Assembly (NCBI RefSeq): GCF_016862515.1
Contig: NZ_BONC01000017.1
Span: 1 to 64,000 of the forward strand
DNA: 64,000 nucleotides
Direction: 5' to 3'
Origin: Asanoa iriomotensis
Lineage (GTDB): Bacteria > Actinomycetota > Actinomycetes > Mycobacteriales > Micromonosporaceae
A program made the position numbers and the translations under genes. The notes beneath the pieces are model-generated. The model ran no database searches. It saw nothing but the letters and a program-made list of their open reading frames with translations, and was not told the DNA's origin. How positions within the stretch are numbered: position 1 is the stretch's first letter; each line of letters opens with the position of its first letter. Below are positions 17,502-33,933 of the stretch, piece after piece.

Positions 17502-18182
17502 TCAGATCGCGGCGATCCACTCGTACCACGACGGCAGCCCGTCGCCGGTTGTCGCCGAGACCGTGAGCAGCGTCAGGTCCGGGTTGACCGCGCGGGCGTG
17601 CTTGGCGCACAGGTCCAGGTCGAAGTCGACGTACGGCAGCAGGTCGATCTTGTTGATCAGCACCAGGTCCGCCGCCGCGAACATGTAGGGGTACTTCAGC
17701 GGCTTGTCCGTGCCCTCGGTCACCGAGATGACCACCACCTTGCGCTGCTCGCCCAGGTCGAACATGGCCGGGCAGACCAGGTTGCCGACGTTCTCCACGA
17801 ACACCACCGCACCCGCCGGCGGGTCCAGCCTGGACAGTGCCGAGCGCACCAGCGCCGCGTCCAGGTGGCAGCCGGCCCCGGTGTTGACCTGCACCGCGGG
17901 CGCGCCCGTGCGGCGCAGCCGCTCCGCGTCCAGCGACGTGGCCTGGTCGCCCTCGATGACCGCCGCCGGCCGCACGCGGGCCAGCGCGACCAGCGTCCGC
18001 TCCAGCAGCGTGGTCTTGCCGGAGCCGGGCGAGCTCATCAGGTTGAGCGCGATCGCGTCCCGCTTGCGCAGCCAGGCCCGGTTGTCCCGGGCGATGGCGT
18101 CGTTCTTGGCGAGCACGTTCTGTTCCAGAGACACATGCTCATGAGCGTGGTCACCGTCAGGGCAACCGCAGGTTCCGCACAC
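17502..18182 (-). CDS. hypB: Hydrogenase nickel-incorporation GTPase HypB (226 aa)
   Basis: GTPase that with HypA loads nickel into the hydrogenase large subunit. The N-terminal high-affinity metal motif CGTCGC gives C2, C5 and C7. A short histidine-containing patch (DHAHEH) follows; there is no long His-rich stretch. The P-loop SPGSGKTT is at 51-58, the nucleotide-sensing metal site C105-H106 lies in GAGCHLD, and NKIDL marks the guanine site. The GTG start is three bases after the hypA stop. The two genes are transcribed away from the rest of the hydrogenase locus. Confidence 0.96.
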
Positions 18183-18185
18183 CGC

Positions 18186-18515
18186 TCAACCCACCTCCAT
18201 CGAGACGATCTTCAACTCGCGGCCGGCGAGCACCGAGACGTCGGCGCTGCCGCACGCGCACAGCAACACGGGGTCGGGCAGGTCGAACGACACGCCGCAG
18301 GCCCGACACGCCGCGCGGGCCGGTGTCACGTCGATCTCCAGGCGGGCGCCCTCGACGACGGTGCCGGCGGCGACGAGGTCGAAGCAGAACTCCAGAGACG
18401 CGGGCACGACGGCCGTCAGGGCTCCGACCTGCAGTCGGACCGCGTGCACCCGACGTGAACCCGCCCGCGAGAGGACCTCGTCCACGACGCTCTGCGTGAT
18501 CGACAGCTCGTGCAC
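18186..18515 (-). CDS. hypA: Hydrogenase nickel metallochaperone HypA (109 aa)
   Basis: Nickel chaperone for [NiFe]-hydrogenase maturation. The start is set at GTG 18515 because the mature protein must begin M-H-E-L, with H2 as nickel ligand, and GGAGCGGC lies just upstream. The zinc site is visible as CRAC followed by CAC; the second pair is CxC, one residue shorter than the usual CxxC. The C-terminal GRELKIVSMEV is canonical. Confidence 0.94.
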   Translation of the reverse strand: MHELSITQSVVDEVLSRAGSRRVHAVRLQVGALTAVVPASLEFCFDLVAAGTVVEGARLEIDVTPARAACRACGVSFDLPDPVLLCACGSADVSVLAGRELKIVSMEVG

Positions 18516-18527
18516 GCCGCTCCTTGT

Positions 18528-18539
18528 TGACAATTGTCA
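18528..18539. promoter_or_regulatory. Perfect 12-bp palindrome in the hypA/hhyS divergent region
   Basis: TGACAATTGTCA is self-complementary and sits 12 bp upstream of the hypA start and 95 bp upstream of hhyS. It stands out against GC-rich surroundings and has the size of a dimeric repressor site. The regulator is unknown. Confidence 0.55.
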
Positions 18540-18634: not shown

Positions 18635-19690
18635 ATGCCGACGCAAGAAGCGATCAAGGCCGAGGAAACCCTCATCCACGTTCTCTGGATCAACGCCGGG
18701 CTCAGCTGCGACGGCGACTCGGTGTCGCTGACCGCCGCGACCCAGCCGAGCATCGAGGAGATCGCCCTCGGCGCGCTGCCGGGCCTGCCCAAGGTCGCGG
18801 TCCACTGGCCACTGATCGACTTCGAGTGCGGCCCGAACGGCGGCGCCGACGACTTCCTCGAGTGGTTCTTCAAGGCCGACCGCGGCGAGCTCGACCCATT
18901 CGTGCTCGTCGTCGAGGGCTCGATCGCCAACGAGGAGCTCAAGAGCGAGGGCTACTGGACCGGCTTCGGCAACAACCCGGCGACCGACCAGCCGATCACG
19001 ATGAGCGGCTGGCTCGACCGGCTCGCGCCGAAGGCGACCGCGATCGTGGCGACCGGCACCTGCGCGACGTACGGCGGCATCCACGCGATGGCCGGCAACC
19101 CGACCGGCGCGATGGGCGTGGCCGACTACCTCGGCTGGGACTGGAAGTCCAAGGCCGGCATCCCGATCGTCAACGTGCCCGGCTGCCCGATCCAGCCCGA
19201 CAACATGTCGGAGACGCTGACGTACCTGCTCTACATGGCTACCGGTCAGGCGCCGATGATCCCGCTCGACGACGCGCTGCGGCCCACCTGGCTGTTCGGC
19301 GCGACCGTGCACGAGGGCTGTGACCGCGCCGGCTACTACGAGCAGAGCGACTTCGCGACCGAGTACGGCCAGCCCGAGTGCATCGTCAAGCTCGGCTGTT
19401 GGGGCCCGGCGGTGAAGTGCAACGTGCCCAAGCGCGGCTGGATGAACGGCCTGGGCGGCTGCCCGAACGTCGGCGGCATCTGCATCGGCTGCACCATGCC
19501 CGGCTTCCCCGACAAGTTCATGCCGTTCATGGACGAGCCGCCCGGCGCGAAGCTCTCCACGACCACCGGCGCCGCGTACGGCAAGACGATGCGCAGCCTG
19601 CGCAACATCACCACCCACACGCTCGACCGCGAGCCCAAGTGGCGCAAGCGCGGCCGCGAACTCACCACCGGCGCGAAGCGCACCTGGTGA
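18635..19690 (+). CDS. hhyS: Group 1h [NiFe]-hydrogenase small subunit HhyS (351 aa)
   Basis: Electron-transfer subunit of the high-affinity, oxygen-tolerant group 1h (former group 5) uptake hydrogenase. The opening INAGLSCDGDSVS is diagnostic: C25-x-x-D28 matches the 3Cys-1Asp proximal cluster known from the Ralstonia eutropha actinobacterial-type enzyme. Further cysteines occur in TGTCATYGG, NVPGCP, EGCDRAGYY, LGCWGP and the GGCPNVGGICIGC block. There is neither a Tat signal nor a C-terminal membrane helix, so the enzyme is cytosolic. GGAAAGG precedes the ATG. hhyL follows 25 bp on. Confidence 0.96.
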   Translation: MPTQEAIKAEETLIHVLWINAGLSCDGDSVSLTAATQPSIEEIALGALPGLPKVAVHWPLIDFECGPNGGADDFLEWFFKADRGELDPFVLVVEGSIANEELKSEGYWTGFGNNPATDQPITMSGWLDRLAPKATAIVATGTCATYGGIHAMAGNPTGAMGVADYLGWDWKSKAGIPIVNVPGCPIQPDNMSETLTYLLYMATGQAPMIPLDDALRPTWLFGATVHEGCDRAGYYEQSDFATEYGQPECIVKLGCWGPAVKCNVPKRGWMNGLGGCPNVGGICIGCTMPGFPDKFMPFMDEPPGAKLSTTTGAAYGKTMRSLRNITTHTLDREPKWRKRGRELTTGAKRTW

Positions 19691-19715
19691 CCCGACGAGA
19701 GAGGCAGCCGAACCG

Positions 19716-21506
19716 ATGACGGTGACGCAACCGCAACGCGCTTCCGGCGCGGGGACCGAGTCCCTTGTGGACATGGCGTGGGACCCGATCACCCGCATCG
19801 TGGGTAGCCTGGGTATCTACACCAAGATCGATTTCAACCAGCGGGTGGTCGCGGAGTGCCACAGCACCAGCTCGATCTTCCGCGGGTACTCGATCTTCAT
19901 GCGCGGCAAGGACCCGCGGGACGCCCACTTCATCACCAGCCGGATCTGCGGCATCTGCGGCGACAACCACGCGACCTGCTCCTGTTACACGCAGAACATG
20001 GCGTACAAGGTGAAGCCGCCGGCGATCGGTGAGTGGATCGTCAACCTCGGTGAGGCCGCCGAGTACATGTTCGACCACAACATCTTCCAGGAGAACCTGG
20101 TCGGGGTCGACTACTGCGAGAAGATGGTCGCCGAGACCAACCCGGGCGTGCTCGAGCAGGCCAACCGCACCGATGCGCCCAACGCGGGTGCGCACGGCTA
20201 CCGCACCATCGGCGACATCATGCGCGCGCTCAACCCGTTCACGGGCGACCACTACCGCGAGGCGCTGCAGGTCAGCCGGATGACCCGCGAGATGTTCTGC
20301 CTGATGGAAGGACGCCACGTCCATCCGTCCACGTTGTACCCCGGCGGTGTCGGCACGGTCGCGACCGTCCAGCTCATGACCGACTACATGAGCCGGCTCA
20401 TGCGCTACGTCGAGTTCATGAAGAAGGTCGTGCCGATGCACGACGACCTCTTCAACTTCTTCTACCAGGCGCTGCCCGGCTACGAGATGGTCGGCAACCG
20501 GCGGATCATGCTCGGCTGCTGGGGTTCGTTCCAGGACCCGGAGCACTGCAACTTCGAGTACAAGGACATGACCGACTGGGGTCGCAAGATGTACGTGACC
20601 CCCGGCATCGTCGTCGACGGCAAGCTGGTCACCACCGACCTCGTCCGGATCAACCTCGGCATCCGCATCCTGCTCGGCTCGTCCTACTACCAGGACTGGG
20701 AAGGCCAGGAGATGTTCGTGACCGAGGACCCGCTGGGCAACCCGGTCGACAAGCGGCACCCCTGGAACCAGCACACCAACCCGCAGCCGCAGAAGCGCGA
20801 CCTCGACGGCAACTACAGCTGGGTGATGTCGCCGCGCTGGTTCGACGGCAAGGACTACCTGGCCCTGGACACCGGCGGCGGCCCGCTGGCCCGGCTCTGG
20901 TCGACCGCGCTGGCCGGCCTGGTCGACATCGGCTACGTGCAGTCCACCGGGCGCAGCGTGAAGATCAACCTCCCGAAGACCGCGCTGAAGGGCCCGGTCG
21001 AGCTGGAGTGGCACATTCCCCAGTGGAGCAACACGCTGGAGCGCAACCGGGCCCGCACCTACTTCCAGGCGTACGCGGCCGCCTGTGCGCTGCACTTCGC
21101 CGAGCAGGCGCTGGGCGAGATCCGCGCCGGGCGGACCAAGACCTGGGAGAAGTTCGACGTGCCGAAGGACAGCATCGGCTGCGGCTTCACCGAGGCGGTG
21201 CGCGGTGTGCTCTCGCACCACATGGTGATCCGGGACGGGAAGATCGCCAACTACCACCCGTACCCGCCGACCCCGTGGAACGCGAGCCCCCGGGACAGCT
21301 TCGGCACTCCCGGCCCCTACGAGGACGCGGTGCAGGGTCAGCCGATCTTCGAGGAGAACGACCGGGAGCACTTCAAGGGCATCGACATCATGCGTACGGT
21401 CCGCAGCTTCGACCCCTGCCTGCCCTGTGGCGTGCACATGTACCTGGGCAACGGCAAGAAGCTCGAGATGCTGCACTCGCCGACGCAGACGGCCGGCATC
21501 GAGTGA
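19716..21506 (+). CDS. hhyL: Group 1h [NiFe]-hydrogenase large subunit HhyL (596 aa)
   Basis: Catalytic subunit that oxidises H2 at the Ni-Fe site. The L1 motif TSRICGICGDNHATC supplies C78 and C81; L2 is DPCLPCGVH at 566-574 supplying C568 and C571. The 22 residues after H574 are the C-terminal extension removed by the maturation protease encoded downstream. The L1 wording is characteristic of group 1h, the enzymes that scavenge atmospheric H2 in Streptomyces, Rhodococcus and mycobacteria. Its stop overlaps the next start by GTGA. Confidence 0.97.
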   Translation: MTVTQPQRASGAGTESLVDMAWDPITRIVGSLGIYTKIDFNQRVVAECHSTSSIFRGYSIFMRGKDPRDAHFITSRICGICGDNHATCSCYTQNMAYKVKPPAIGEWIVNLGEAAEYMFDHNIFQENLVGVDYCEKMVAETNPGVLEQANRTDAPNAGAHGYRTIGDIMRALNPFTGDHYREALQVSRMTREMFCLMEGRHVHPSTLYPGGVGTVATVQLMTDYMSRLMRYVEFMKKVVPMHDDLFNFFYQALPGYEMVGNRRIMLGCWGSFQDPEHCNFEYKDMTDWGRKMYVTPGIVVDGKLVTTDLVRINLGIRILLGSSYYQDWEGQEMFVTEDPLGNPVDKRHPWNQHTNPQPQKRDLDGNYSWVMSPRWFDGKDYLALDTGGGPLARLWSTALAGLVDIGYVQSTGRSVKINLPKTALKGPVELEWHIPQWSNTLERNRARTYFQAYAAACALHFAEQALGEIRAGRTKTWEKFDVPKDSIGCGFTEAVRGVLSHHMVIRDGKIANYHPYPPTPWNASPRDSFGTPGPYEDAVQGQPIFEENDREHFKGIDIMRTVRSFDPCLPCGVHMYLGNGKKLEMLHSPTQTAGIE

Positions 21507-22060
21507 CCACTGTAGACACCAAGGCTCCGGCCGCCGCCGACTGGCGCGCGGCCGGAGACCGCATCGAGGCACTGATCACGGCGAGCGCGGCCGGCGGGGC
21601 GGTGGCCCGGGACCGGGCCGAGGAGCTCGTCCGGCTGGTCGTCGACCTCTACGGTGCCGGCCTGGAACGCCTGCTGGAGTTGCTGCACGAGCGCGGCGCG
21701 CTCGGCGACGACGTGCTCGACGCCCTCGCCGGCGACGAGCTGGTCGCCAGCCTGCTGCTCGTGCACGGCCTGCACCCGGAGAGTGCGTCGACCCGCGTGG
21801 CGAAGGCGCTGGCGGCGGCCGCCCCCGGTGGCGAGGCCGCGCTCATCGACATCACACCCGAGGGCATCGCCCGGGTACGCCTGACCGCCAGCGGCTGCTC
21901 GTCGGCACCCTTGAAGGCGGCCGTGGAGTCCGCGGTCGCCGACGCCGCACCCGAGGTCGTGACCATCGAGGTGCTCGCCGGCGACCCGGCCGCCGGACCG
22001 ATCATCCCGGTCGGCTCGCTGTTCAGCCGGGTCGGCCCGGCGCACGCGGAGACGCCGTGA
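21503..22060 (+). CDS. NifU-like hydrogenase accessory protein (185 aa)
   Basis: Helical N-terminal part (about 1-105) followed by a NifU C-terminal-like domain (about 110-175). In true NifU/Nfu scaffolds this domain carries CxxCP; here the motif reads C132-S-S-A135-P, so the second cysteine is alanine. A canonical two-cysteine Fe-S scaffold site is therefore absent. Genes of this type follow hhyL in actinobacterial group 1h loci. It overlaps both neighbours by 4 bp. Role is presumed to be in cluster delivery or enzyme assembly. Confidence 0.85.
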   Translation: MTTVDTKAPAAADWRAAGDRIEALITASAAGGAVARDRAEELVRLVVDLYGAGLERLLELLHERGALGDDVLDALAGDELVASLLLVHGLHPESASTRVAKALAAAAPGGEAALIDITPEGIARVRLTASGCSSAPLKAAVESAVADAAPEVVTIEVLAGDPAAGPIIPVGSLFSRVGPAHAETP

Positions 22061-22683
22061 CCCAGCCGCTCGGCGCGCTGCGCCGGATCAGCCGGGACCG
22101 GCCCGCACCGCGGGTCGCGGGGGAGCGCTGCGAGATGTGCGCCCAGCCCGTGCCCGGAGCGCACGGCCACGTCGTGCACCTCGAGGGTCGCGCGCTGATG
22201 TGCACATGCCGGGCCTGCTACCTGCTGTTCTCCGGCGACGGTGACCAGCGCTACCGGGCCGTGCCGGACCGCTACCTGAGCTTTCCGAACGTCTCCGCCG
22301 ACGGCCCGGCGTTCGACGCCCTGGACATCCCGGTCGGGCTGGTTTTCCTCTTCTACAACTCGGTGCAGGACCGGCTGGTCGGGTTCTACCCCGGCCCGGC
22401 CGGCGCGACCGAGTCGGAGCTGCCGCTGGACGCCTGGGCCGGCGTGCTCGCCGCCCACCCCGAGCTGGCCACGCTGCGGCCCGACGTGGAGGCCCTGCTG
22501 GTGCGCCGCACGACGCCCGGTGCCGCCCACTCCGGCTCGTGCCACCTCGTGCCGATCGACGTCTGCTACGAGCTCGTCGGCACGCTGCGCCAGGGCTGGC
22601 GTGGCTTCGACGGCGGCACCGAGGCGCGGGCCGCGGTGGCCGACTTCTTCACCCGGGTGCAGGAGCGGAGCGTCGACGGATGA
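22057..22683 (+). CDS. DUF5947-type hydrogenase-locus protein with zinc-ribbon-like cysteines (208 aa)
   Basis: Conserved protein of group 1h hydrogenase loci, function unknown. Residues 25-54 contain C25-x-x-C28 and C49-x-C51-x-x-C54, a possible metal- or Fe-S-binding site like a rubredoxin or zinc ribbon. The rest is globular with a strand-rich centre (DIPVGLVFLFYNSVQDRLVGFYPGP). It overlaps both neighbours by 4 bp (GTGA, ATGA), so it is translated in step with them. It might serve as an electron carrier or assembly factor, but that is inference. Confidence 0.85.
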   Translation: MTQPLGALRRISRDRPAPRVAGERCEMCAQPVPGAHGHVVHLEGRALMCTCRACYLLFSGDGDQRYRAVPDRYLSFPNVSADGPAFDALDIPVGLVFLFYNSVQDRLVGFYPGPAGATESELPLDAWAGVLAAHPELATLRPDVEALLVRRTTPGAAHSGSCHLVPIDVCYELVGTLRQGWRGFDGGTEARAAVADFFTRVQERSVDG

Positions 22684-23315
22684 CCCTGCTCTTCGCCGTC
22701 CGCGACATCGTCGCCGAGCCGCACGCCGTGACCCCGCAGCTGACCGCCAAGCTGCGGATCGACGACGACGCCGGCCGCCGGGTGCACGCGATGACGCTGC
22801 GCTGCCAGGTGCGGGTCGAGCCGCAGCGGCGCGGGTACGACCCCGCCGAGGGCGAGGCGCTGCGCGGGCTGTTCGGCGGGCGGGAGCGGTGGACCGACAC
22901 CGTGCGCCCGTTCCCGTGGCTGCGCTGCGACACCACCGTGCCGGGCTTCGCCGGCGGCACCGAGGTCGACCTGGCGCTGCCGTGCACGTACGACCTCGAC
23001 GTGGTCGGCACCAGCTATCTGCACGCCCTGACCGACGGCACGGTCCCGCTCTCGTTCCTGTTCTCCGGCACCGTGTTCGTGCCCGGCGGGACCGGCTTCG
23101 CGGTGGAGCCGGTGCCCTGGGACCGGACCGCCGCCTACGACCTGCCGGTCGCGGTCTGGCGGGACATGATCGAGCAGTACTTCCCCGGCACCGGCTGGCT
23201 CCGCCTCGACCGCGAGGTGCTCGACGCCCTCGCCGCCCTCCGCGCCCGGCAGGGCCACGTGAGCTGGGAAGAGACCATTCGTTCGCTGCTGCCCGCCGAC
23301 GAGGTGGTCGCATGA
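22680..23315 (+). CDS. DUF6084-type hydrogenase-locus protein (211 aa)
   Basis: Conserved unknown in group 1h loci. It is soluble and strand-rich (VHAMTLRCQVRVEPQRRGYDP, PFPWLRCDTTVPGFAGGTEVDLALPC, VPLSFLFSGTVF), suggesting a beta-sandwich. Three cysteines occur but not as a cluster motif. It overlaps the flanking genes by ATGA on both sides. Found with the NifU-like, DUF5947 and 456-residue genes, it probably contributes to assembly or to the oligomeric state of the enzyme (inference). Confidence 0.85.
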   Translation: MTLLFAVRDIVAEPHAVTPQLTAKLRIDDDAGRRVHAMTLRCQVRVEPQRRGYDPAEGEALRGLFGGRERWTDTVRPFPWLRCDTTVPGFAGGTEVDLALPCTYDLDVVGTSYLHALTDGTVPLSFLFSGTVFVPGGTGFAVEPVPWDRTAAYDLPVAVWRDMIEQYFPGTGWLRLDREVLDALAALRARQGHVSWEETIRSLLPADEVVA

Positions 23316-24682
23316 GTCTCGAGGCCGTCCGTGCGGTCGCCGACGCGGTGCTCTACGAGGGCTACCTGCTCTATCCCTACCGCGCCAGCTCCGGGAAGAA
23401 CCGGTCGCGCTGGCAGTTCGGGGTGCTCGGACCGCCCGGCGCCGCCGAGCGCGGCCTGGGCGAGGAGTCCGGGATGGCGATGCAGTGCCTGCTGACCGGC
23501 GACGCCCACGACGGCACGGTCGACGTGCACCTGCGCTTCCTGCAGCTCCAGGTGCGGCAGGCGCAGCGCCGGGTCGGCGACGGGACGTTCGTCGACGTCG
23601 AGGCGCTCCACGCGGCCGGACAGACCGTGCTCACCTGGGACGAGGCCGTCGAGCGGGAGGCCGTCTTCGCGGCGCAGGAGATCGGCCCGGACGCCGAGCT
23701 GCGGGTCGAGATCTCCGGCGGCGCCGACGTCGAGCCGCTGCTGGACGAGCTCGGCACCGAGGTCGGGCGGGTCGTCCGGCGGCGCTGGCCCGTCCGCGCC
23801 CACGTCCGGCTCGCCGCGGCGGTCGACGACGGCCAGACCAGGCTGACCGTTGCCGTCGAGAACGCGTACGACGGCCCGGTGTCCACGAAGGACGACGCCG
23901 TACGCAGCTCACTGCTCGGTGCGCACCTCGTGCTCAAAGCCAACCGCGCCGGCTTCGTCTCGGTGATCGACCCGCCGGACGCCGCCGCCGGCGCCGCCGC
24001 CCGGTGCGCCCAGCACCGCTGCTGGCCGGTGCTGGCCGGGCCGGCCGGCACGACCGACCTCGTGCTCGGCTCGCCGATCATCCTCTACGACCACCCCGAG
24101 GTGGCCGAGGAGAGCCCGGGCGCGCTGTTCGACGCGACCGAGATCGACGAGATCCTGGTGCTGCGGATCATGACGATGACCGAGGCGGAGAAGGCCGAGG
24201 CCAGGGCCACGGACCCGCAGGTCGCCGCCATCATCGACCGGTGCGACGGGCTCACCCCCGAAGAGCTGCAACGCCTGCACGGCGTGTTCCGGGACCCGGC
24301 GCCGCGCGACCTCCGCAACGTCGAACCCCCGACGTTCGAGACCGGGGGAATGCCGTGGTGGGACCCCGCGGCGGATGCCGCCGTCTCGCCCGAGACCGAC
24401 TCGGTCGTCGTGGACGGCGTCCGCGTGGGCAAGGGCAGCATCGTGCGGGTACACCCGCGCCGCCGGGCCGACGCGCAGGACCTGTTCTTCGCCGGCCAGC
24501 TCGCCCGGGTCACCGCCGTGCTGTCCGACGTGGACGGTGGCACGCACGTGGCCCTGGTGCTCGTCGACGACCCCGCGGCCGACCTGCACGACTGGTACGG
24601 CCGCTACTTCTACTTCGCGCCGGACGAGATCTCACCCGCCGGTGACGAGGAACCCATCCAGAGAGAGGAGAGCCGGTCATGA
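23312..24682 (+). CDS. Hydrogenase-locus conserved protein of unknown function (456 aa)
   Basis: Large soluble protein known to me only from its place in group 1h hydrogenase loci. It opens EAVRAVADAVLYEGYLLYPYRAS, and a C-terminal region about 370-450 (VGKGSIVRVHPRRRADAQDLFFAGQLARV, then VALVLVDDPAADLHDW) looks like an SH3-like small barrel. No catalytic signature, Fe-S motif or signal peptide is visible. It overlaps both neighbours by 4 bp. The length is close to what I expect for the family. Confidence 0.8.
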   Translation: MSLEAVRAVADAVLYEGYLLYPYRASSGKNRSRWQFGVLGPPGAAERGLGEESGMAMQCLLTGDAHDGTVDVHLRFLQLQVRQAQRRVGDGTFVDVEALHAAGQTVLTWDEAVEREAVFAAQEIGPDAELRVEISGGADVEPLLDELGTEVGRVVRRRWPVRAHVRLAAAVDDGQTRLTVAVENAYDGPVSTKDDAVRSSLLGAHLVLKANRAGFVSVIDPPDAAAGAAARCAQHRCWPVLAGPAGTTDLVLGSPIILYDHPEVAEESPGALFDATEIDEILVLRIMTMTEAEKAEARATDPQVAAIIDRCDGLTPEELQRLHGVFRDPAPRDLRNVEPPTFETGGMPWWDPAADAAVSPETDSVVVDGVRVGKGSIVRVHPRRRADAQDLFFAGQLARVTAVLSDVDGGTHVALVLVDDPAADLHDWYGRYFYFAPDEISPAGDEEPIQREESRS

Positions 24683-24798
24683 GAAGGCTCGGCATGGTGA
24701 CGGCGGGCGTCGGTGCCGCGGTGGCGCTGGCAGCCCTGGTGCTGACCGTCCGGTCCGTACCCGACATCCGGCGGTACCTGAAGATCCGCTCGATGTGA
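24679..24798 (+). CDS. DUF6893-type 39-aa membrane peptide
   Basis: Small ORF of 39 codons wedged between the 456-residue protein gene and the protease gene, overlapping each by 4 bp (ATGA, GTGA). It has a basic N-terminus (MRRLG), one hydrophobic helix (about residues 6-25) and a basic tail ([14 protein letters not shown]). A single-pass membrane peptide with positive ends could recruit the otherwise soluble hydrogenase to the membrane; that role is inference. Confidence 0.8.
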   Translation: MRRLGMVTAGVGAAVALAALVLTVRSVPDIRRYLKIRSM

Positions 24799-25268
24799 CC
24801 GTTCTGATAGCGGGGATCGGCAACGTGTTCCTGGGCGACGACGGGTTCGGCCCGGCCGTCGCCCAAGCGCTGGTCGAGCGGGGTGACCTGCCCGACCACG
24901 TCCGCGTGGTCGACTACGGCATCCGCGGCCTGCACCTGGCCTACGACCTGGTCGACGGCGTCGAAGCCCTGATCCTGGTCGACGCGCTGCCCGGCGACGC
25001 CGCGCCGGGCACCGTCACCGTCCTCGAAGTGAGCACCGGCGACCTGCCCGGCGGCGCCGGCCTCGACGCGCACGCCATGGACCCGGCCACCGTGCTGGCC
25101 ACGCTGCACCGCCTCGGCGGCACCCTGCCACGCACCTATGTGGTCGGTTGCCGCCCGACCAACCTGGACGAGGATCTCGGCCTCAGCCCCGCCGTCGCCG
25201 CCGCCGTGCCCGAAGCGGTCGCCGCCGTCGACGTCCTGCTCGGCAAGCTCACCACCGGAGGGACCTGA
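24795..25268 (+). CDS. Hydrogenase maturation endopeptidase, HyaD/HybD type (157 aa)
   Basis: Removes the C-terminal peptide of HhyL after nickel insertion. The opening [13 protein letters not shown] provides D16 at the nickel-sensing position occupied by glutamate in E. coli HybD; D63 and H93 fit the other two ligands, with the same numbering as HybD for His93. Length is normal. The GTG start overlaps the 39-aa ORF stop, and the HypC-HypF fusion gene begins two bases after its stop. Confidence 0.93.
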
Positions 25269-25270
25269 CA

Positions 25271-27808
25271 ATGTGCCTGGGCATCCCGGGACAGGTCGTC
25301 GAGATCGTGCCCGGGTACGAGGGCCAGCTCGCCCTGGTCGACGTCGAGGGCGCCGCCCGCCGGGTGAACGTCGGCATGCTGGACGCCCAACCGGCGCCGG
25401 GCGCCTGGGTGCTCATCCACATGGGCTTCGCGGTCGAGCTGATCGACGCGGACCGCGCCCGCGGCGCCCTGGAAGGCCTGGAGCTGATGGGCCGGGGCCG
25501 TGATGAGGACCAGCGCGTCCGCCGCCGCTACGCGGTGACCGGCGTCGTGCAGGGCGTGGGCTTCCGCCCGTTCGTGTACGCGACCGCGACCGCGCTGGCC
25601 CTGACGGGCCAGGTTTCCAACACCGCGACCGGTGTCACGATCGAGGTCGAGGGCACCCCGGACGCGCTCGACACGTTCGCCCGTCGCCTGCGCACCGAAC
25701 CCCCGCCGCTGGCCGTGGTCGAGACCGTCACCGAGTCCACCATGGACCCCGTCGGCGGCACCGGCTTCACCATCGAGGAGTCCGGCCCTGCCGGCCGCTC
25801 CCGCACCCTGGCCTCGCCCGACGTGGCCACCTGCGCCGACTGCCGGGCCGAGCTGCGCGACCCGGAGAACCGCCGCCACCGGCACCCGTTCATCACCTGC
25901 GTCAACTGCGGCCCGCGGCTGACCATCATCACCGCGCTCCCGTACGACCGGGAGACCACCACGATGGCCGGCTTCCCGATGTGCGACGCCTGCCGCCAGG
26001 AGTACGAGGATCCGGCCGACCGCCGCTTCCACGCCCAGCCGATCGCCTGCCCCGACTGCGGCCCCCGGATCGAGCTGGTCACCGGCGACCCGGGCCGGCA
26101 CGCGTGGCCGCCCGTGCACGGCGAGACCGCCCTGCGCACCGCCCGCGAGCTGCTGGCGCAGGGCCGGATCGTCGCGGTGAAGGGCCTCGGCGGCTACCAC
26201 CTCGCCTGCGACGCCCGCGACCCCCACGCCGTCGCGGAGCTGCGCCGCCGCAAGCGCCGCGGCGGCAAGCCGTTCGCGGTGATGGTCGCCGACCTGGCCA
26301 CCGCCCGCCGGGTCGCGGTGCTCACCGCCGACGAGGAGCACCTGCTCGCCGGCGCGCAACGCCCGATCGTGCTGGCGCCAAAACGTGAGGCGCTGGCCGA
26401 CGAGGTGGCGCCCGGCAACCCGGACCTCGGCGTGATGCTGCCCTACACGCCGCTGCACGAGCTGCTCTTCGGCCTCGACGGCGACCCGCCGATGACCGAC
26501 GCCCTGGTGCTCACCTCCGGCAACGTGGCCGGCGAGCCGATCGTCACCGACGACGCGGACGCGCTGCGCCGGCTGGCCGGGCTGGCCGACGCCTGGCTGC
26601 GCCACGACCGGCCGATCCACGTGCCCTGCGACGACTCGGTCACCCGCACGGTGGCCGGCGCGCCGTTGCCGGTGCGGCGGTCCCGGGGCTACGCGCCGCT
26701 GCCGGTCGCCCTGCCGTTCGACGTGCCGCCGTCGCTGGCCGCCGGTGCCGACCTGAAGAACGCCTGCGCGGTCGCCGAGGGCCGCTACGCCTGGCTCAGC
26801 CCGCACGTGGGCGACATGGACGACCGGCGCACCGTCGACGCGCTGACCTCCGTCGCGAACCAGATCGAGGACCTCACCGGCGTACGCCCGGCGCGGCTGG
26901 TCGCCGACGCGCACCCGGACTACCGGAGCACGCGGTGGGCGCTGGAGCGCGCCGCCGGCCGCCCGGTGCACCGGGTCCAGCACCACCACGCGCACATCGC
27001 CGCCGTCATGGGCGAGCACGGCATCGGCGCCGGGGAGCAGGTGATCGGCGTCGCCTTCGACGGCACCGGCTACGGCACCGACGGCGCGGTCTGGGGCGGC
27101 GAGGTGCTGCTCTGCGGCTACAAGGCGGCGGAGCGCTTCGCACACCTCGGCTACGTGCCGCTGGCCGGTGGGGACGCGAGCGTGCTGCGCCCCTACCGGA
27201 TGGCGCTCGCGCACCTGCGGCACGCCGGCATCGACTGGGCCGACGACGTGCCGGCGGTGGCGGCCTGCCCGCAGGCCGAGCGGGACGTGCTGGCGCACCA
27301 GCTCGACACGGCGTTCGGCAGCGTGCCGACGTCCAGCATGGGCCGGCTGTTCGACGCGGTGGCCTCGCTGGTCGGCGTCAAGCACGAGGTCGACTACGAG
27401 GCCGAGGCCGCCATCGTGCTGGAAGGGCTCGCCCGGTCGCACGGGCCGGTCGGTCGCGCGTACCCGATCGGCGTGCACGACACCGACGGGCCGCTGGTAG
27501 CCGACCCGGCCGAGCTGGTCCGGGCCGTGGTCGCCGACGTGCGTGCCGGCGCGCCGGCCGCGGAGGTCGCGGCGGTCTTCCACGCCACCGTCGCCGCGCT
27601 GGTCGCGGACCTGGCCGGCCGCGCCCGCGACCGGACCGGCCTGCGGACCGTTGCGCTTGGTGGCGGGGTTTTCCAGAACGCGGTCCTGCTCGACGCGGCC
27701 GACCGGCTGCTGTCCGACCGGGGCTTCACCGTGCTGCGCCCGAGCCTGCTGCCGCCGAACGACGGCGGCATCGCGCTTGGCCAGTTGCTGATCGCCGCCG
27801 CTTCGTAG
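25271..27808 (+). CDS. hypF: HypC-HypF fusion: chaperone plus carbamoyltransferase (845 aa)
   Basis: One uninterrupted frame joins a complete HypC domain to a complete HypF. Residues 1-75 are HypC (MCLGIPG with C2, [15 protein letters not shown]). Residues 86-150 are the acylphosphatase domain (R99, N117). Zinc fingers use C188/C191, C210/C213, C238/C241 and C260/C263; the YrdC-like and Kae1-like domains follow, with QHHHAH and FDGTGYG motifs. HypF makes the thiocarbamate that becomes the iron cyanide ligand; HypC carries the iron with HypD. An internal ATG at 25487 (M73) with GGAG upstream could also give free HypF. Confidence 0.93.
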
Positions 27809-27824
27809 GAAGGGGAACCACACC

Positions 27825-28069
27825 GTGTGTCTGGCAGTACCCGGACAGGTCATGAGCATCGCCGAACGGGACGGGACGTTGATGGCCGACGTCGACTTCG
27901 GCGGCGTACGCAAGGACGTGTGCCTGCAGTACGTCCCGGACGCGGCCGTCGGCGAGTACGTCGTCGTGCACGTCGGCTTCGCGATCCAGCGGCTCGACGA
28001 GGACTCCGCGAAGCAGACCCTCGCCAACTTCGAACAACTGGGCATTCTCGAGGAGGAGTTCGGGGCGAA

Positions 28070-28073
<4 letters not shown>
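27825..28073 (+). CDS. hypC: Free hydrogenase chaperone HypC (82 aa)
   Basis: Second HypC in the locus. The GTG start gives MCLAVPG with essential C2, followed by [15 protein letters not shown] and a VVVHVGFA strand; the tail LEEEFGAK is longer than in the fused copy. GGAAGGGGA precedes the start at loose spacing. It overlaps hypD by ATGA, so it is the natural partner of HypD in Fe(CN)2CO assembly. Sequence differs clearly from the HypC domain fused to HypF, so it is not a recent duplicate. Confidence 0.95.
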
Positions 28074-29172
<1,099 letters not shown>

Positions 29173-29176
<4 letters not shown>

Positions 29177-30228
29177 CCACTGTGGACCTTTCCGCGTGGT
29201 CGTGCCCGGTGCCGCTGCGGGACACCCCGGCGGTGGTGATGGGGCACGGCGGTGGCGGTGCGATGTCGGCCGAGCTGGTGGAGCAGCTGTTCCTGCCGGC
29301 CTTCGGCGCCGCGGGCGCGGCCGACCTCGGCGACTCGGCGGTGGTCGAGGCCGGCGGGGCACGGCTCGCGTTCTCGACCGACTCGTACGTGGTCAAGCCG
29401 ATGTTCTTCCCCGGCGGCTCGATCGGCGACCTCGCGGTCAACGGCACCGTCAACGACCTGGCCATGTCGGGCGCGACGCCGCTGTTCCTGTCGACCGCGT
29501 TCATCCTGCAGGAGGGCACCGAGCTCGCCGTGCTGGGCCGGATCGCGCAGGCGATGGGCCTGGCCGCGGCCGCCGCGGGCGTCAAGCTGGTCACCGGCGA
29601 CACCAAGGTGGTCGACAGCGCCAGCGGCGACGGGGTGTTCGTCAACACCGCCGGCATCGGCCTGGTCGCGCCGGGCGTCGAGATCGGCCCGCGGCGTGCC
29701 CGGCCGGGCGACGTGGTGCTGGTCAGCGGCGACATCGGCGCGCACGGGATCGCGGTCATGAGCGGCCGCGAGGGGCTGACGTTCGGCACGTCCGTGCTCA
29801 GCGACACCGCGCCGCTGGCCGGCCTGGTCGCGGCGATGCTGCGCACCGGCGGCGACGTGCGGGTGCTGCGGGACCCGACCCGCGGCGGCGTGGCGGCCTC
29901 GCTCAACGAGATCGCCCGGGCCTCGCAGGTCGGTGTGTCGCTCGTGGAGCGGGACCTGCCGGTGCCCGACGCGGTGCGGGACGCGTGCAGCCTGCTCGGG
30001 CTCGACCCGTTGCAGGTGGCCAACGAGGGCAAGCTGGTGGCGGTGGTCGACCCGGCGTCGGCGGACCCGGTGCTGGCGGCGATGCGCGCGCACCCGTTCG
30101 GCGCGGGCGCCCGGGTGATCGGCGCGTGCGTGGCCGAGCATCCCGGCACGGTCGTCGCGCGCACCGCGCTGGGCGGCAACCGGGTGATCAGCCTGCCGAT
30201 CGGCGAGCAGCTACCCCGGATCTGCTGA
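29173..30228 (+). CDS. hypE: Hydrogenase cyanide-ligand synthesis protein HypE (351 aa)
   Basis: Dehydrates the carbamoyl group received from HypF to a thiocyanate on its C-terminal cysteine. The PurM-like N-terminal glycine stretch [28 protein letters not shown] and the DPTRGG loop are present, and the protein ends in PRIC with the required terminal cysteine. The GTG start overlaps hypD. The DUF6390 gene begins one base after its stop. Confidence 0.96.
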
Positions 30229-30229
30229 C

Positions 30230-30949
30230 GTGTCGGCCGAGGGCGCGCTGATGTTCGCGCGGTACGCGTACCCGCCGAACGCCCTGGGCTACTGCGGTCC
30301 GGCGGGGGCCGAGGCGATGCTGCGCGGCGACGCCACCGCGGACATCGCCCGCCGCGCCCGCCGGTTCGAGGGCGCGTGGTCCTATCTGGAGTTCCTCGCG
30401 TCCACGGCGGGCACGCCGGACCCGCTCGACGAGCGGGTGGTGGAGGCCTACTGGGTGGGCGGCGACCTGTTGGCCGGCGTCTCGTCGGAGTCGCTGGTGT
30501 CGTTCCTGACGACCCGGTTCGCCGGCCAGTCGGGCGGCACCTGGCAGTCCGCGACCGACCGCGCGCTGCCGCACCACACGTTCCAGGTGTTCGAGGTCTA
30601 CCCGTGGGCGGGCCTCCTGGCCACCACCGGCCACCCGCAGGCCCTGTCGGTGCTCGACCAGTGCCGCATCCGCACCGGCGTGGTGACCGCCGTGTCGGGG
30701 GAGACCGCCACCGTCGAGTCGCGCCCGTTGCTCGCCGGCCCGGCCGGCGGGCTGGTGCCGGGCGCGCCGCACCGCGAGACGGTGCGGTGGTCGGTGGAGG
30801 GCTGGTCGCTGCTGCCGGGGCTGTCCGCCGGCGACCGGGTGGCGCTGCACTGGAACTGGGTCTGCGACATCATCACCCCCGACCAGGCGGCCCGGATCGA
30901 GACCCTGGAGGCCCGCTACCACTCGTCGCTGCGGACGCCCTCGGCATAG
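30230..30949 (+). CDS. DUF6390-type hydrogenase-locus protein (239 aa)
   Basis: Conserved last gene of actinobacterial hydrogenase operons, function unknown. It opens MFARYAYPPNALGYCGPAGAEAML, contains HHTFQVFEVYPWAGLL in the middle and HWNWVCDIITPDQAARIE near the end; histidines and tryptophans suggest a ligand-binding or enzymatic pocket, but no known catalytic motif is present. It starts one base after hypE, so it is in the operon. Its last 34 bp overlap the convergent SARP regulator gene. Confidence 0.82.
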   Translation: MSAEGALMFARYAYPPNALGYCGPAGAEAMLRGDATADIARRARRFEGAWSYLEFLASTAGTPDPLDERVVEAYWVGGDLLAGVSSESLVSFLTTRFAGQSGGTWQSATDRALPHHTFQVFEVYPWAGLLATTGHPQALSVLDQCRIRTGVVTAVSGETATVESRPLLAGPAGGLVPGAPHRETVRWSVEGWSLLPGLSAGDRVALHWNWVCDIITPDQAARIETLEARYHSSLRTPSA

Positions 30950-33933
30950 GCGGCGTCGAACGCGGCGCGGCCGAGTGCGGCTGCCGCGGCCGTCTCGGTC
31001 CGCAGCAGGTCGGCCCGGTGCGCCGGGGGTGGCGGGACGCCGGCCGGCCCCTGCGCCGACGCCGCGCCGAGCAGGCGGGCCGCGCTCTCGAACCGGTCGT
31101 CCGCCGCCGCGGCCGCGGCCAGGCCGCTCAGCGCGAGCGCCACGTCCTGCGTGGCGCCCAGCGCGCGGGCGGCGGCGAGGGCCGCGCGGTGGTGGGTGAC
31201 CGCCGCTGCCGGGTCACCGCGGAGAACCTCTACGTGGCCGAGCTCGACGAGCGCGCTCGGCAGGTAGAGGGGCTGGCCGCCCTCGGCCTCGGTGCGCGCG
31301 GCCGAGTCGAGCAGCCAGCGCAGGTGGGTGGTGGCGGCGTCGAGGTCACCGGCCCGGCGGGCGGCGAACGCCAGGCCCATGGTGGCGAAGACCGCCAGCA
31401 GCGGCGCGCCCTGTTCCCGCGCCAACGCCAGCGCCTCGGTGCAGCGCGCGCTGGCCGTGGTGTGGTCGCCGCGTTCCATGGCGATCCAGCCGAGCCAACC
31501 TAGCCGTCCCGAGACGTCGGCCCAGAGGCCCAGCTCGCGGGCGACCGCGAGGCCCTCGGTGTGCAGCCGGGCGGCCGCGTCGTGGTCGCCGGTCATGGCG
31601 GCGTGCGCGCCCAGCCACTCCGTGGCCTGCAACAGGCCCCACCGGTCGCCCAGCTCGCGGAAGAGCGCGGCGCTGCGGTCGCCGTCGCGGGCGAGCGCGC
31701 CGGCGTCGCCGCGGACGTGGGCCAGCTTGGCGGTCAGGCTGAGCGTCGCGGCCGTGCCCCAGCGGTCGTCGCGGAACGCGTCCAGGAGCCGGGCGAGCAG
31801 CTTCCCCGTTGCCTCGACGTCGCCGAGGTCGATCTCCGCGTACGCCAGGAACCACTCGGCGTGGGCCCGCTCGGCCGGGTCGTGGATCGCGTCGACCGCG
31901 GCGGCGTGCCGGGCCGGCCGGTCGGCGACGTCGCCGAGCAGGAACGAGAAGCCGGTGAGCCACGCGTTCGCGCGGGGGTCCGGCGCCGCGTCGAGCGCGG
32001 CCCGCAGGGCGCGGCTGCCCTCGCCGAGCCGGCCGCGCAGGAACCAGTGCCAGGCCAGCGCGCGGACCAGCCGGATCGCCCGGGCCGGGTCGCGCCGGGG
32101 GTCGAGGGCGGCGCGCAGGTTGGCCGACTCGGCGTCCAGGACCCGCAACCAGTCGGCCTGGTCCGGGCCGCGCAGCCGGGCTTCGGCCCGCTCGGCCAGG
32201 ACGGTGTAGTAGTCGCGGTGCCGCGCCCGCGTCGCGTCGAGGTCGCCGGCCTCGCCCATCCGCTCGACACAGAAGGCGGACACGGACTCCAGGAGCCGGT
32301 AGCGGCCTCGTCCGGTGCGCACGACCAACGACCGGTCGAGCAGGCGGGCCACCATCTCGGCGACGTCGGTGCGGGCCACGTCGCCGGCGGCGCAGACGGC
32401 CTCGGCGGCCTCCATCGTGCAACCGTCCGCGTGTGCGGCCAGGCGGCGCAGCACGATCCGCTCCGGCGCGGTCAGCAGCCGCCAGCTCCAGTCCACGGTG
32501 GCCAGCAGGGTCTGCTGCCGGGCCGGCACGCCCCGCTGCCCTGCGGCCAGCAGCCGGAAACGGTCGTCGAGGCCGGCGACCAGCCTGTCCAGGCCGAGCG
32601 CCCGGACCCGGGTGGCCGCCAGCTCCAGCGCCAGCGGGAGGCCGTCGAGCCGCCGGCACAGCAGGGCCACCTGGTCCGCGTTGGCGGCGTCGAGCGCGAA
32701 GCCGCGGTCCGCCGCGGCGGCGCGGGCCACGAAGAGCTGGGCGGCGCCGGCGGCTTCGAGCGGCGACACCGGCCAGACCACCTCGCCGGCCAGCCCGAGC
32801 GGCTCGCGGCTGGTGGCCAGGACGTGTGACCCGGGCGCCGCCCGGAGCAGCCCGGCGACCAGGTCGGCGGCGGCGTCGATCACGTGCTCGCAGTTGTCGA
32901 GCACCAGCAGCATCCGCCGGGCCCGCAAGGCGGCGAACCGGTCGGCGCCGCCCGTGTCGCGCAGCCCGAGCGTGCTGGCGAGCGTGTCGCTGACCGCGTC
33001 CGCCTCGACGCCGGCCAGCTCGACCAGCCAGACACCGTCCGGAAAGGACGGTCCCAGGGCGCCGGCCACCTCGATCGCCAGCCGGGTCTTGCCCACGCCG
33101 CCCGGGCCGGTCAGGCAGACCAGCCGCTGCGCCGGCAGGAGCGCGGTCAGCTCTCCGACGGCCTCGGCACGGCCGAACAGCTCGCCGAGCGGCGCGGGCA
33201 GGTTGGTGTGCGGCGGTGCCAGGTCGAGGCTCGGATCCTGGGCGAGGATCGCGCGGTGCAACGCGGCCAGCTCCGGGCCCGGGTCGAGGCCGAGCTCGTC
33301 GGCGAGCCGCTGCCGCAGGTCGGCGTAGCTGTCGAGGGCCTCCGCCTGCCGTCCCGCCCGGTAGAGCGCCAGCATCCACAGCCCGCGGGTGCGCTCCCGG
33401 AGCGGATCGCGCGCGACGAGGTCGGCCAGCTCGCCGGCCACGGCCGTGTGCTGCCCGAGCGCGAGCCGCCGCTCCGCCCGGTCGTCGAGCGCGGTGAGCC
33501 GCCGCTCGTCAAGCCGGACGACCGCCGCCCGGGCGAACTCGGCGTCCGCGAATCCGGCGTACGCGGGGCCGCGCCAGAGCGCGAGCGCGTCGTCGAGCCG
33601 GTCGGCGTCGAGCAGCTCCTCGAACTCGACGGCGTCGATCGCCCGGCTGCGCAGGAGGAAGCCGGCCGGGCCCGACTCGACCAGCGCGCGGGCGCCGGGC
33701 TCGGCGTCGTCGAGCGCCCGGCGGAGCTGCGACACCTTCACCGCGAGCGCCGCGGCCGGGTTGCCGGGCAGGTCGCCGCCCCACAGGTCGTCGACCAGGC
33801 GGTCCGCCGACACGGGCTGCCCCGCGCGGGCCACCAGCGCGGCGAGCAGCGCGCGCACCTTCGCACCGGGGATGGGGACCGTCGCCCCGTCCGCCGCCCA
33901 CACCGTGAGCGGCCCGAGCACCCCGAAACGCAT
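30916..33933 (-). CDS. SARP/AfsR-like transcriptional regulator with AAA ATPase and TPR region (1005 aa)
   Basis: N-terminal OmpR-type winged helix (about 1-95), bacterial transcriptional activator domain (about 100-240), NB-ARC/AAA ATPase with Walker A GPGGVGKT at 276-283 and LLVLDNCEHV Walker B, then about 450 residues of helical repeats. This domain order is that of large SARPs that activate secondary-metabolite or stress genes. The ATG has TAGGCT 7 nt upstream, so it is probably leaderless. It is divergent from the serine hydrolase, a possible target, and convergent with the hydrogenase operon. Confidence 0.9.
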   Translation of the reverse strand: MRFGVLGPLTVWAADGATVPIPGAKVRALLAALVARAGQPVSADRLVDDLWGGDLPGNPAAALAVKVSQLRRALDDAEPGARALVESGPAGFLLRSRAIDAVEFEELLDADRLDDALALWRGPAYAGFADAEFARAAVVRLDERRLTALDDRAERRLALGQHTAVAGELADLVARDPLRERTRGLWMLALYRAGRQAEALDSYADLRQRLADELGLDPGPELAALHRAILAQDPSLDLAPPHTNLPAPLGELFGRAEAVGELTALLPAQRLVCLTGPGGVGKTRLAIEVAGALGPSFPDGVWLVELAGVEADAVSDTLASTLGLRDTGGADRFAALRARRMLLVLDNCEHVIDAAADLVAGLLRAAPGSHVLATSREPLGLAGEVVWPVSPLEAAGAAQLFVARAAAADRGFALDAANADQVALLCRRLDGLPLALELAATRVRALGLDRLVAGLDDRFRLLAAGQRGVPARQQTLLATVDWSWRLLTAPERIVLRRLAAHADGCTMEAAEAVCAAGDVARTDVAEMVARLLDRSLVVRTGRGRYRLLESVSAFCVERMGEAGDLDATRARHRDYYTVLAERAEARLRGPDQADWLRVLDAESANLRAALDPRRDPARAIRLVRALAWHWFLRGRLGEGSRALRAALDAAPDPRANAWLTGFSFLLGDVADRPARHAAAVDAIHDPAERAHAEWFLAYAEIDLGDVEATGKLLARLLDAFRDDRWGTAATLSLTAKLAHVRGDAGALARDGDRSAALFRELGDRWGLLQATEWLGAHAAMTGDHDAAARLHTEGLAVARELGLWADVSGRLGWLGWIAMERGDHTTASARCTEALALAREQGAPLLAVFATMGLAFAARRAGDLDAATTHLRWLLDSAARTEAEGGQPLYLPSALVELGHVEVLRGDPAAAVTHHRAALAAARALGATQDVALALSGLAAAAAADDRFESAARLLGAASAQGPAGVPPPPAHRADLLRTETAAAAALGRAAFDAAYAEGVRSDEW

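Follow-up and report, generated by a model that had tools for sequence, protein, structure and literature searches.

An in-frame fusion of HypC to HypF in a hydrogenase gene cluster of Asanoa iriomotensis and its relatives

HypC and HypF are hydrogenase maturation helpers and are usually separate proteins. In the 64,000-nucleotide stretch of Asanoa iriomotensis contig NZ_BONC01000017.1 analysed here (the window), one gene encodes a complete HypC domain followed by a complete HypF in a single reading frame free of stop codons. Both constituent kinds of protein are known, and the fusion itself appears to be undescribed: our search of the open-access literature, in which subscription papers are little covered, found no description of a HypC-HypF fusion, just as the preliminary description of this DNA had been aware of none, and the sole match to the term "HypCF" was the name of a primer. 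Among 19 matched PDB sequences, none spanned both the HypC and the HypF parts. The chances seem to us evenly balanced that the fused HypC (HypC1) is a client-side HypC tethered to HypF in one HypCF protein, with a second, free HypC (HypC2) serving HypD.

The fused gene and its hydrogenase cluster

The gene (window positions 25271-27808, plus strand) opens with ATG-TGC, has a GGAGG sequence 9 nt 5' of the start, and consists of 845 codons with no internal stop on translation. Pfam searches of the 845-aa protein identified HupF_HypC at residues 1-68 (3.5e-19), Acylphosphatase at 86-168, zf-HYPF in two stretches, Sua5/YrdC at 293-470, HypF_C at 486-582 and HypF_C_2 at 593-838, and NCBIfam models scored 70.7 bits for TIGR00074 (hypC_hupF; cut-off 48) and 737.8 bits for the equivalog TIGR00143 (hypF; cut-off 466.1). 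The acylphosphatase, HypF zinc-finger, YrdC-like and Kae1-like domains of HypF are all present in the right order, as in known HypF proteins (TIGR00143; PDB 3vth and 4g9i), and the HypF-length PDB matches start at residues 75 and 88 of the fusion; the protein differs from these in carrying an N-terminal HypC. The fused copy is the only full HypF match in the A. iriomotensis genome. The N-terminal Met-Cys and a HypC domain above the gathering score place the fused HypC with HypC/HybG/HupF proteins (TIGR00074; PDB 2z1c, 3vyr and 2ot2), with which it shares Cys2 and the VLIHMGFA motif. However, those proteins are free and small (about 75-110 aa for the examples in our tree), whereas the C-terminal helix of HypC1 continues in frame into HypF. 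The coordinates, frame and domains given in the preliminary description were all correct by translation, Pfam and NCBIfam, and the second HypC that it placed downstream was recovered there by Pfam and NCBIfam, with a GTG start (Table 1).

Table 1. Features of the fused gene and the surrounding cluster, in window positions
Feature	Position	Strand	Basis and remarks
hypB, divergent from the cluster	17502-18182	-	CobW/HypB domain
hypA, divergent from the cluster	18186-18533	-	tblastn against annotated C. necator hypA
Hydrogenase small subunit HhyS	18635-19690	+	PF14720/PF01058
Hydrogenase large subunit HhyL, likely client	19716-21506	+	PF00374; PDB match 5aa5_C
NifU-like (HhyE-type) protein	21503-22060	+	tblastn, 36% to C. 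necator gene annotated as NifU family
DUF5947 protein	22057-22683	+	Pfam; accessory gene of the cluster type
DUF6084 protein	22680-23315	+	Pfam; accessory gene of the cluster type
456-aa protein without family	23312-24682	+	Accessory gene of the cluster type
Hydrogenase maturation endopeptidase, directly 5' of the fusion	24795-25268	+	TIGR00072, PF01750
HypC1 domain (aa 1-74)	25271-25492	+	PF01455, TIGR00074, predicted fold; MCLGIPG start, Cys2 and His of WVLIHMGFA kept
HypC1 C-terminal helix	aa 60-74	+	Predicted structure
In-frame ATG (Met73), possible internal start, not conserved	25487-25489	+	Met column in 17 of 31 fused genes
Hinge/linker (about aa 75-82)	25493-25516	+	pLDDT below 50 at 75-79, variable lengths, pN/pS
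Complete HypF (aa 83-845), including stop codon	25517-27808	+	Pfam/NCBIfam domains, PDB matches
Free HypC (HypC2, 82 aa), GTG start, adjoins hypD	27825-28073	+	Pfam, NCBIfam; own group in HypC tree
hypD	28070-29176	+	TIGR00075
hypE, ends PRIC (C-terminal Cys)	29173-30228	+	TIGR02124, translation
DUF6390 protein, final gene of the run	30251-30949	+	Pfam

The fusion lies in a run from 18635 to 30949, in the order HhyS, HhyL, NifU-like protein, DUF5947, DUF6084, the 456-aa protein, endopeptidase, HypCF, HypC2, HypD, HypE and DUF6390. The NifU-like protein had no match in Pfam or NCBIfam, and neither did the 456-aa protein, which accompanies DUF5947, DUF6084 and DUF6390 in many mapped clusters. 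A scan for promoters and terminators gave no signal above shuffled sequences. Convergent with the cluster, an ORF at 30916-33933 on the minus strand encodes a regulator-like protein of 1005 aa, the N-terminal part of which presumably resembles an AfsR/SARP protein.

The best PDB match of HhyL was 5aa5_C (1060 bits; second best, 162), which we take to be the actinobacterial-type hydrogenase of C. necator, and HhyL matched its counterpart on C. necator pHG1 at 77%, with a gene order common to both. The large subunit is nearest to that enzyme and the same accessory genes are present; the hydrogenase is presumably of group 1h (former group 5) [NiFe]. Use of the term group 1h in passages of PMC6883350 matches this label. 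From the small subunit to hypE, the pHG1 cluster (L166) has the same order save for one extra gene, a SIS-domain gene before hypD, but it differs in having a single HypC, located after hypF, and no HypC1, and in carrying hypA and hypB at its end. Clusters of Nocardia and Rhodococcus (L058, L074 and L049) contain the same paralogues in the order HypC1-HypF-HypC2-HypD-HypE, but unfused, with a stop codon and a frame change between HypC1 and HypF.

Distribution of the fusion

An N-terminal HypC on HypF, which the preliminary description had proposed to look for among related genomes, was recovered in 6/6 genomes of the genus, in 24/354 of Micromonosporaceae (the genus included) and in 7/197 of the Nocardioidaceae-titled family. 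The other five Asanoa genomes were 83-89% identical to the window over residues 1-845 with no internal stops, and two of these assemblies consist of one contig and three contigs, respectively. The set of fused genes used below contains 31 non-redundant genes, after the removal of 12 duplicate loci, each of which matched its retained counterpart exactly over the length common to both. A local sequence error is ruled out by conservation of the fusion throughout the genus, and the possibility that a sequencing or assembly error removed a stop or shifted the frame was rejected, with a probability that we regard as negligible, given that isolates and metagenome bins, single-contig genomes among them, share the fusion at 31 non-redundant loci.

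In Micromonosporaceae, 92 genomes matched at an E value of 1e-40 or better, and 21 of them matched from residue 1 to at least residue 842; three more fused genomes (G068, G117 and G124) matched in pieces or had a long linker. HypC1 was found beside HypF in 26 genomes of the family, 24 of them fused, the exceptions being G375 and G376, where the two genes are separate, and the fusion extended to genomes whose HypF is only about 64% identical to that of the window. Other HypF matches (39-53% identity, whole or partial) were present in 65 of the 92 genomes, and no HypC was found within 600 nt upstream in the eight of these that were examined (L009, L010, L013, L015, L017, L018, L020 and L134). 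In G084 the N-terminal part of HypC is lost: its HypC1 domain is reduced to the last residues at the start of a hypF-hypC2-hypD-hypE run (L203, L129), and HhyL was not found at 1e-100, client and HypC1 being absent together.

The seven fused genomes of the Nocardioidaceae-titled family include those of L034 (the seed) and L038; among them, the HypF of G817 is spread over two frames, and the fused locus of G830 stops at the edge of a contig. A contig scan identified at least five fused, stop-free loci (L034-L038) among the 80 loci listed. In a class sample of 394 genomes, only the A. iriomotensis genome itself spanned residues 1-845; G665 matched residues 27-844 with one TGA, and no HypC1 was found upstream (L149). 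No stop-free fusion was found at E 1e-22 in 917 sampled genomes of four other phyla (218, 299, 199 and 201), identified by how their seed loci are titled, a search that more diverged fusions would escape. The nearest Desulfobacterota-side match covered residues 1-174 with one TGA inside, and the nearest Bacillota-side match residues 33-171 with one TAA.

Several unusual forms were observed. Locus L007 (G054) was scored as fused by script and was excluded from the fused counts: a 43-aa HypC2-like remnant lies directly in frame 5' of HypF, with a full HypC2 downstream, perhaps a decayed fusion of a second kind. The fusion of Paractinoplanes atraurantiacus (L036 / L135) has two long low-complexity inserts in HypF, one rich in Gly/Ala/Asp and the other in Pro/Gly/Arg/Asp, giving a total of 947 aa. 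The A. iriomotensis genome also encodes a 360-aa protein (G000:C15:11703-12764; L206:2189-3271) resembling the Kae1-like C-terminal part of HypF alone, with the HHHAH stretch altered to ARHHAL, possibly a repurposed HypF remnant; matches to the Kae1-like region of HypF, whole or in pieces, were present in 6/6 genomes of the genus.

Linker, product and origin of the fusion

Measured from the His motif of HypC to the core of HypF, the linker span was 37, 38, 39, 40, 41, 44 or 98 aa in 30 of the 31 fused genes, with the frame always kept; the remaining gene (L174) did not fit the motif used for this measurement, and the longest span corresponds to an Ala/Asp/Gly-rich repeat in L130. Within the genus, pN/pS was 0.31 for HypC, 0.29 for the acylphosphatase domain, 0.25 for the rest of HypF and 0.58 for the linker (aa 73-84), and third-position changes predominated across the junction (aa 66-90; 132 versus 38 and 56). 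On these substitution patterns, both domains are under purifying selection. The structure predicted from 35 sequences (mean pLDDT 91.4, pTM 0.85) comprises two confident parts, with block-mean pLDDT values of 81-95 over aa 1-70 and a hinge below 50 at residues 75-79. In this model, the hinge directly follows the HypC helix and should permit free movement.

Internal initiation at ATG 25487 had been raised in the preliminary description. The codon does exist, and 24/31 fused genes have some in-frame ATG within the span measured above, as would be expected if the frame yielded two products, the full fusion and a free HypF initiated within the linker. However, a Met occupies the column of ATG 25487 in only 17/31 genes, and no Shine-Dalgarno-like run was found at a spacing of 4-11 before this codon in the window. 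Such runs precede the HypC start in 22/31 genes and any internal start in only 7/31, the gene in the window not among them, and although some internal start codon is present in 30/31 genes, L125 has none. We therefore consider the production of a free HypF improbable, and infer that the product in the cell would be a single chain.

A HypC1-type HypC encoded separately 5' of HypF was found at 21 loci, 14 with HypF in frame +2, six in frame +1 and one counted as frame 0 (L051), in which the HypC itself is broken. All 14 frame +2 loci have a 4-nt overlap, ATGA or GTGA. The preliminary description had held that only loss of a stop, and not an indel, could explain the fusion; the unfused HypC1-type relatives contradict this, since in 20/21 of them the two genes are in different frames, and fusion by stop loss alone was therefore rejected, the exception being the broken L051. 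From the overlap state, read-through of the stop would give the wrong frame, and the fusion would have needed a net frame-changing indel. Seven loci, mostly Desulfobacterota-side, have a HypC2-type HypC directly 5' of HypF, in frame with it across an intervening stop (L039, L040, L044, L048, L052, L060 and L179), but 7/7 in frame means little, because most such loci were kept through the preference of tblastn for one frame. At most other examined loci with a HypC near HypF, HypC lies downstream of HypF.

The HypF tree (72 rows, L007 left out) required four changes between the fused and separate states. In its main fused group, as tabulated with L007 included, 28 rows are scored fused, two absent and one separate; members of Micromonosporaceae and of the Nocardioidaceae-titled family are intermingled there, with L038 and L172 falling outside. 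On this quick tree, whose deep nodes are weakly supported, several fusions would be indistinguishable from fusion combined with reversal and transfer.

These observations bear on a strong and serious rival to any functional reading, namely that an overlapping, translationally coupled pair slipped into one frame and the domains act as if they were apart, the fusion having been fixed by drift or by locking a 1:1 ratio that coupling already provided. The unfused state is commonly the NTGA overlap described above (14/21), from which a single indel would give fusion; no part of the gene is less conserved than the linker, the span of which reaches 98 residues in one species; and the four changes of state on the HypF tree fit a link of little consequence. 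Moreover, the tether appears dispensable, since unfused relatives keep the same cluster, with the same surrounding genes. Nevertheless, the fused state holds in 24 of the 26 family genomes with HypC1 beside HypF, down to the low HypF identities given above, and we regard neutral fusion as possible, though somewhat unlikely.

The two HypC paralogues and their possible roles

In the HypC tree (91 rows), the fused HypC1 and the HypC1 sequences adjacent to HypF fell into one starred group of 36, and HypC2 into another. HoxL (C. necator) and HupF (rhizobia), so named here from gene order as their records read "HypC/HybG/HupF family", came out within the HypC1 group, a placement that we do not trust: their branches are very long, and the alignment is short and resolves poorly. 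By pairwise score they were closer to HypC1 than to HypC2 (97 v 64 for HoxL; 108 v 69 for HupF), whereas the hypD-side HypCs of the same clusters were closer to HypC2 than to HypC1 (158 v 102 and 135 v 106, respectively). E. coli HypC and HybG leaned only slightly to HypC1 (138 v 128 and 152 v 144). The actinobacterial-type cluster of C. necator has a single HypC, which must also serve the client, yet this HypC leaned to HypC2 (176 v 134). At residue 4, Gly stands in 45/46 HypC1-like rows and Ala in 41/45 HypC2-like rows, as classed by score with the references included. HypC2 scored 58.8 bits and HypC1 45.4 bits against the HypC of PDB 2z1c, which we take to be archaeal, from T. kodakarensis. 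To judge from the tree and these scores, the fused HypC1 is a paralogue distinct from HypC2.

Like HypC1, HoxL and HupF are encoded after the endopeptidase gene (in the C. necator and R. etli clusters) and coexist with a second HypC beside hypD. Unlike it, they are free-standing proteins, each with a C-terminal tail of its own, and their clusters contain HoxV/HupK, which was not seen among the scanned cluster proteins of A. iriomotensis (Pfam/NCBIfam); HoxL lacks the conserved His, which HypC1 keeps. As for chaperones of the HoxL/HupF type, HypC1 is encoded with the structural genes and the protease and co-occurs with the putative client. In a hand-chosen sample of 20 related genomes, some of them metagenome bins of unstated completeness, HypC1 (at least 60% identity) was present in all 12 with HhyL of at least 85% identity and in none of the other eight (0/5 with HhyL at 69-80%; 0/3 without HhyL at 1e-100). 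Four mycobacterial clusters kept HypC1 (63-68%) and HhyL (84-85%) with a HypD of another lineage, just 51-53% alike, whereas loci of Blastococcus and Streptomyces had a HypD at 79-81% and a HypF at 58-66% but no HypC1. In one genome (G868; L195), the protease and HypC1 occurred without hypF in the 6-kb stretch examined, and in G084, G054 and G941 HypD and HypF were present without HypC1. The fused HypC1 thus follows a close relative of HhyL and the associated protease and not HypD or HypF, and is therefore more likely to be a client-side HypC. The earlier proposal that the fused HypC hands iron to HypD is accordingly less likely than a client-side role, but the companion suggestion that the free HypC works with HypD is strengthened, HypC2, which adjoins hypD, being the likelier partner.

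Passages of the review PMC12134894 describe HypF as loading HypE, whose C-terminal Cys is the carbamoyl acceptor, and HypE as bringing cyanide to the iron carried by HypC-HypD; HypD and the apo-large subunit are alternative partners of HypC or of a paralogue. The same passages report a stable HypF-HypE complex only when HypE is off HypCD, and no stable HypF complex with HypCDE in vitro, HypF binding HypE, which then visits HypC-HypD. Passages of PMC11565642 attribute delivery of the unit to HypC by itself and describe a movement of the HypC C-terminal part with ATP, and passages of PMC3534401 present HupF as a HypC paralogue that attaches to the large subunit and keeps it stable in oxygen.

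In the client-side arrangement, a single two-domain protein, HypCF, would be made from the gene. Its HypC1 part would be a HypC paralogue dedicated to HhyL, with a role like that of HoxL and HupF, and its C-terminal part a full HypF that would make carbamoyl-adenylate and load HypE. The free HypC2 would pair with HypD as the scaffold for building Fe(CN)2CO, and HypC1 would take over the iron unit or accompany it to HhyL. The short flexible hinge would hold HypC1 on HypF, such that the HypE-loading enzyme and the client-holding chaperone would be made 1:1 and kept together. Client binding by HypC1 and any benefit of the tether are inferred. An extension, which we hold to be rather unlikely, is a tethered assembly line in which HypC1 would hold the client on HypF, the enzyme that begins cyanide synthesis, while HypE swings between HypF and HypC2-HypD within one particle, and the labile Fe-cyanide-carbonyl unit would be passed on without free diffusion, an arrangement suited to maturation of the enzyme in air.

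The reverse assignment, close to the suggestion in the preliminary description that the link could place Fe and carbamoyl delivery on one particle, would have HypC1 pairing with HypD, the tether letting HypE shuttle between HypF and HypD on one particle, and HypC2 doing the carrying to HhyL. HypC1 keeps Cys2 and the conserved His and is compatible with HypD binding, and in passages of PMC12134894 HypE must visit both HypF and HypCD, and E. coli HypC interacts with both HypD and the apo-large subunit HycE. However, hypD adjoins HypC2, HypC2 is nearer to the 2z1c HypC, and HypC1 follows HhyL and not HypD, with HypD and HypF persisting without it in the three genomes named above; we find this scheme improbable.

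The cluster is of the type that soil bacteria use to oxidise atmospheric hydrogen. The fusion, together with the second HypC, may divide between two proteins of one cluster the two jobs that HypC is known to do. It offers a natural system in which to ask which HypC holds the client and whether cofactor assembly proceeds by channelling, making a hand-over step in metal-cofactor assembly directly testable.
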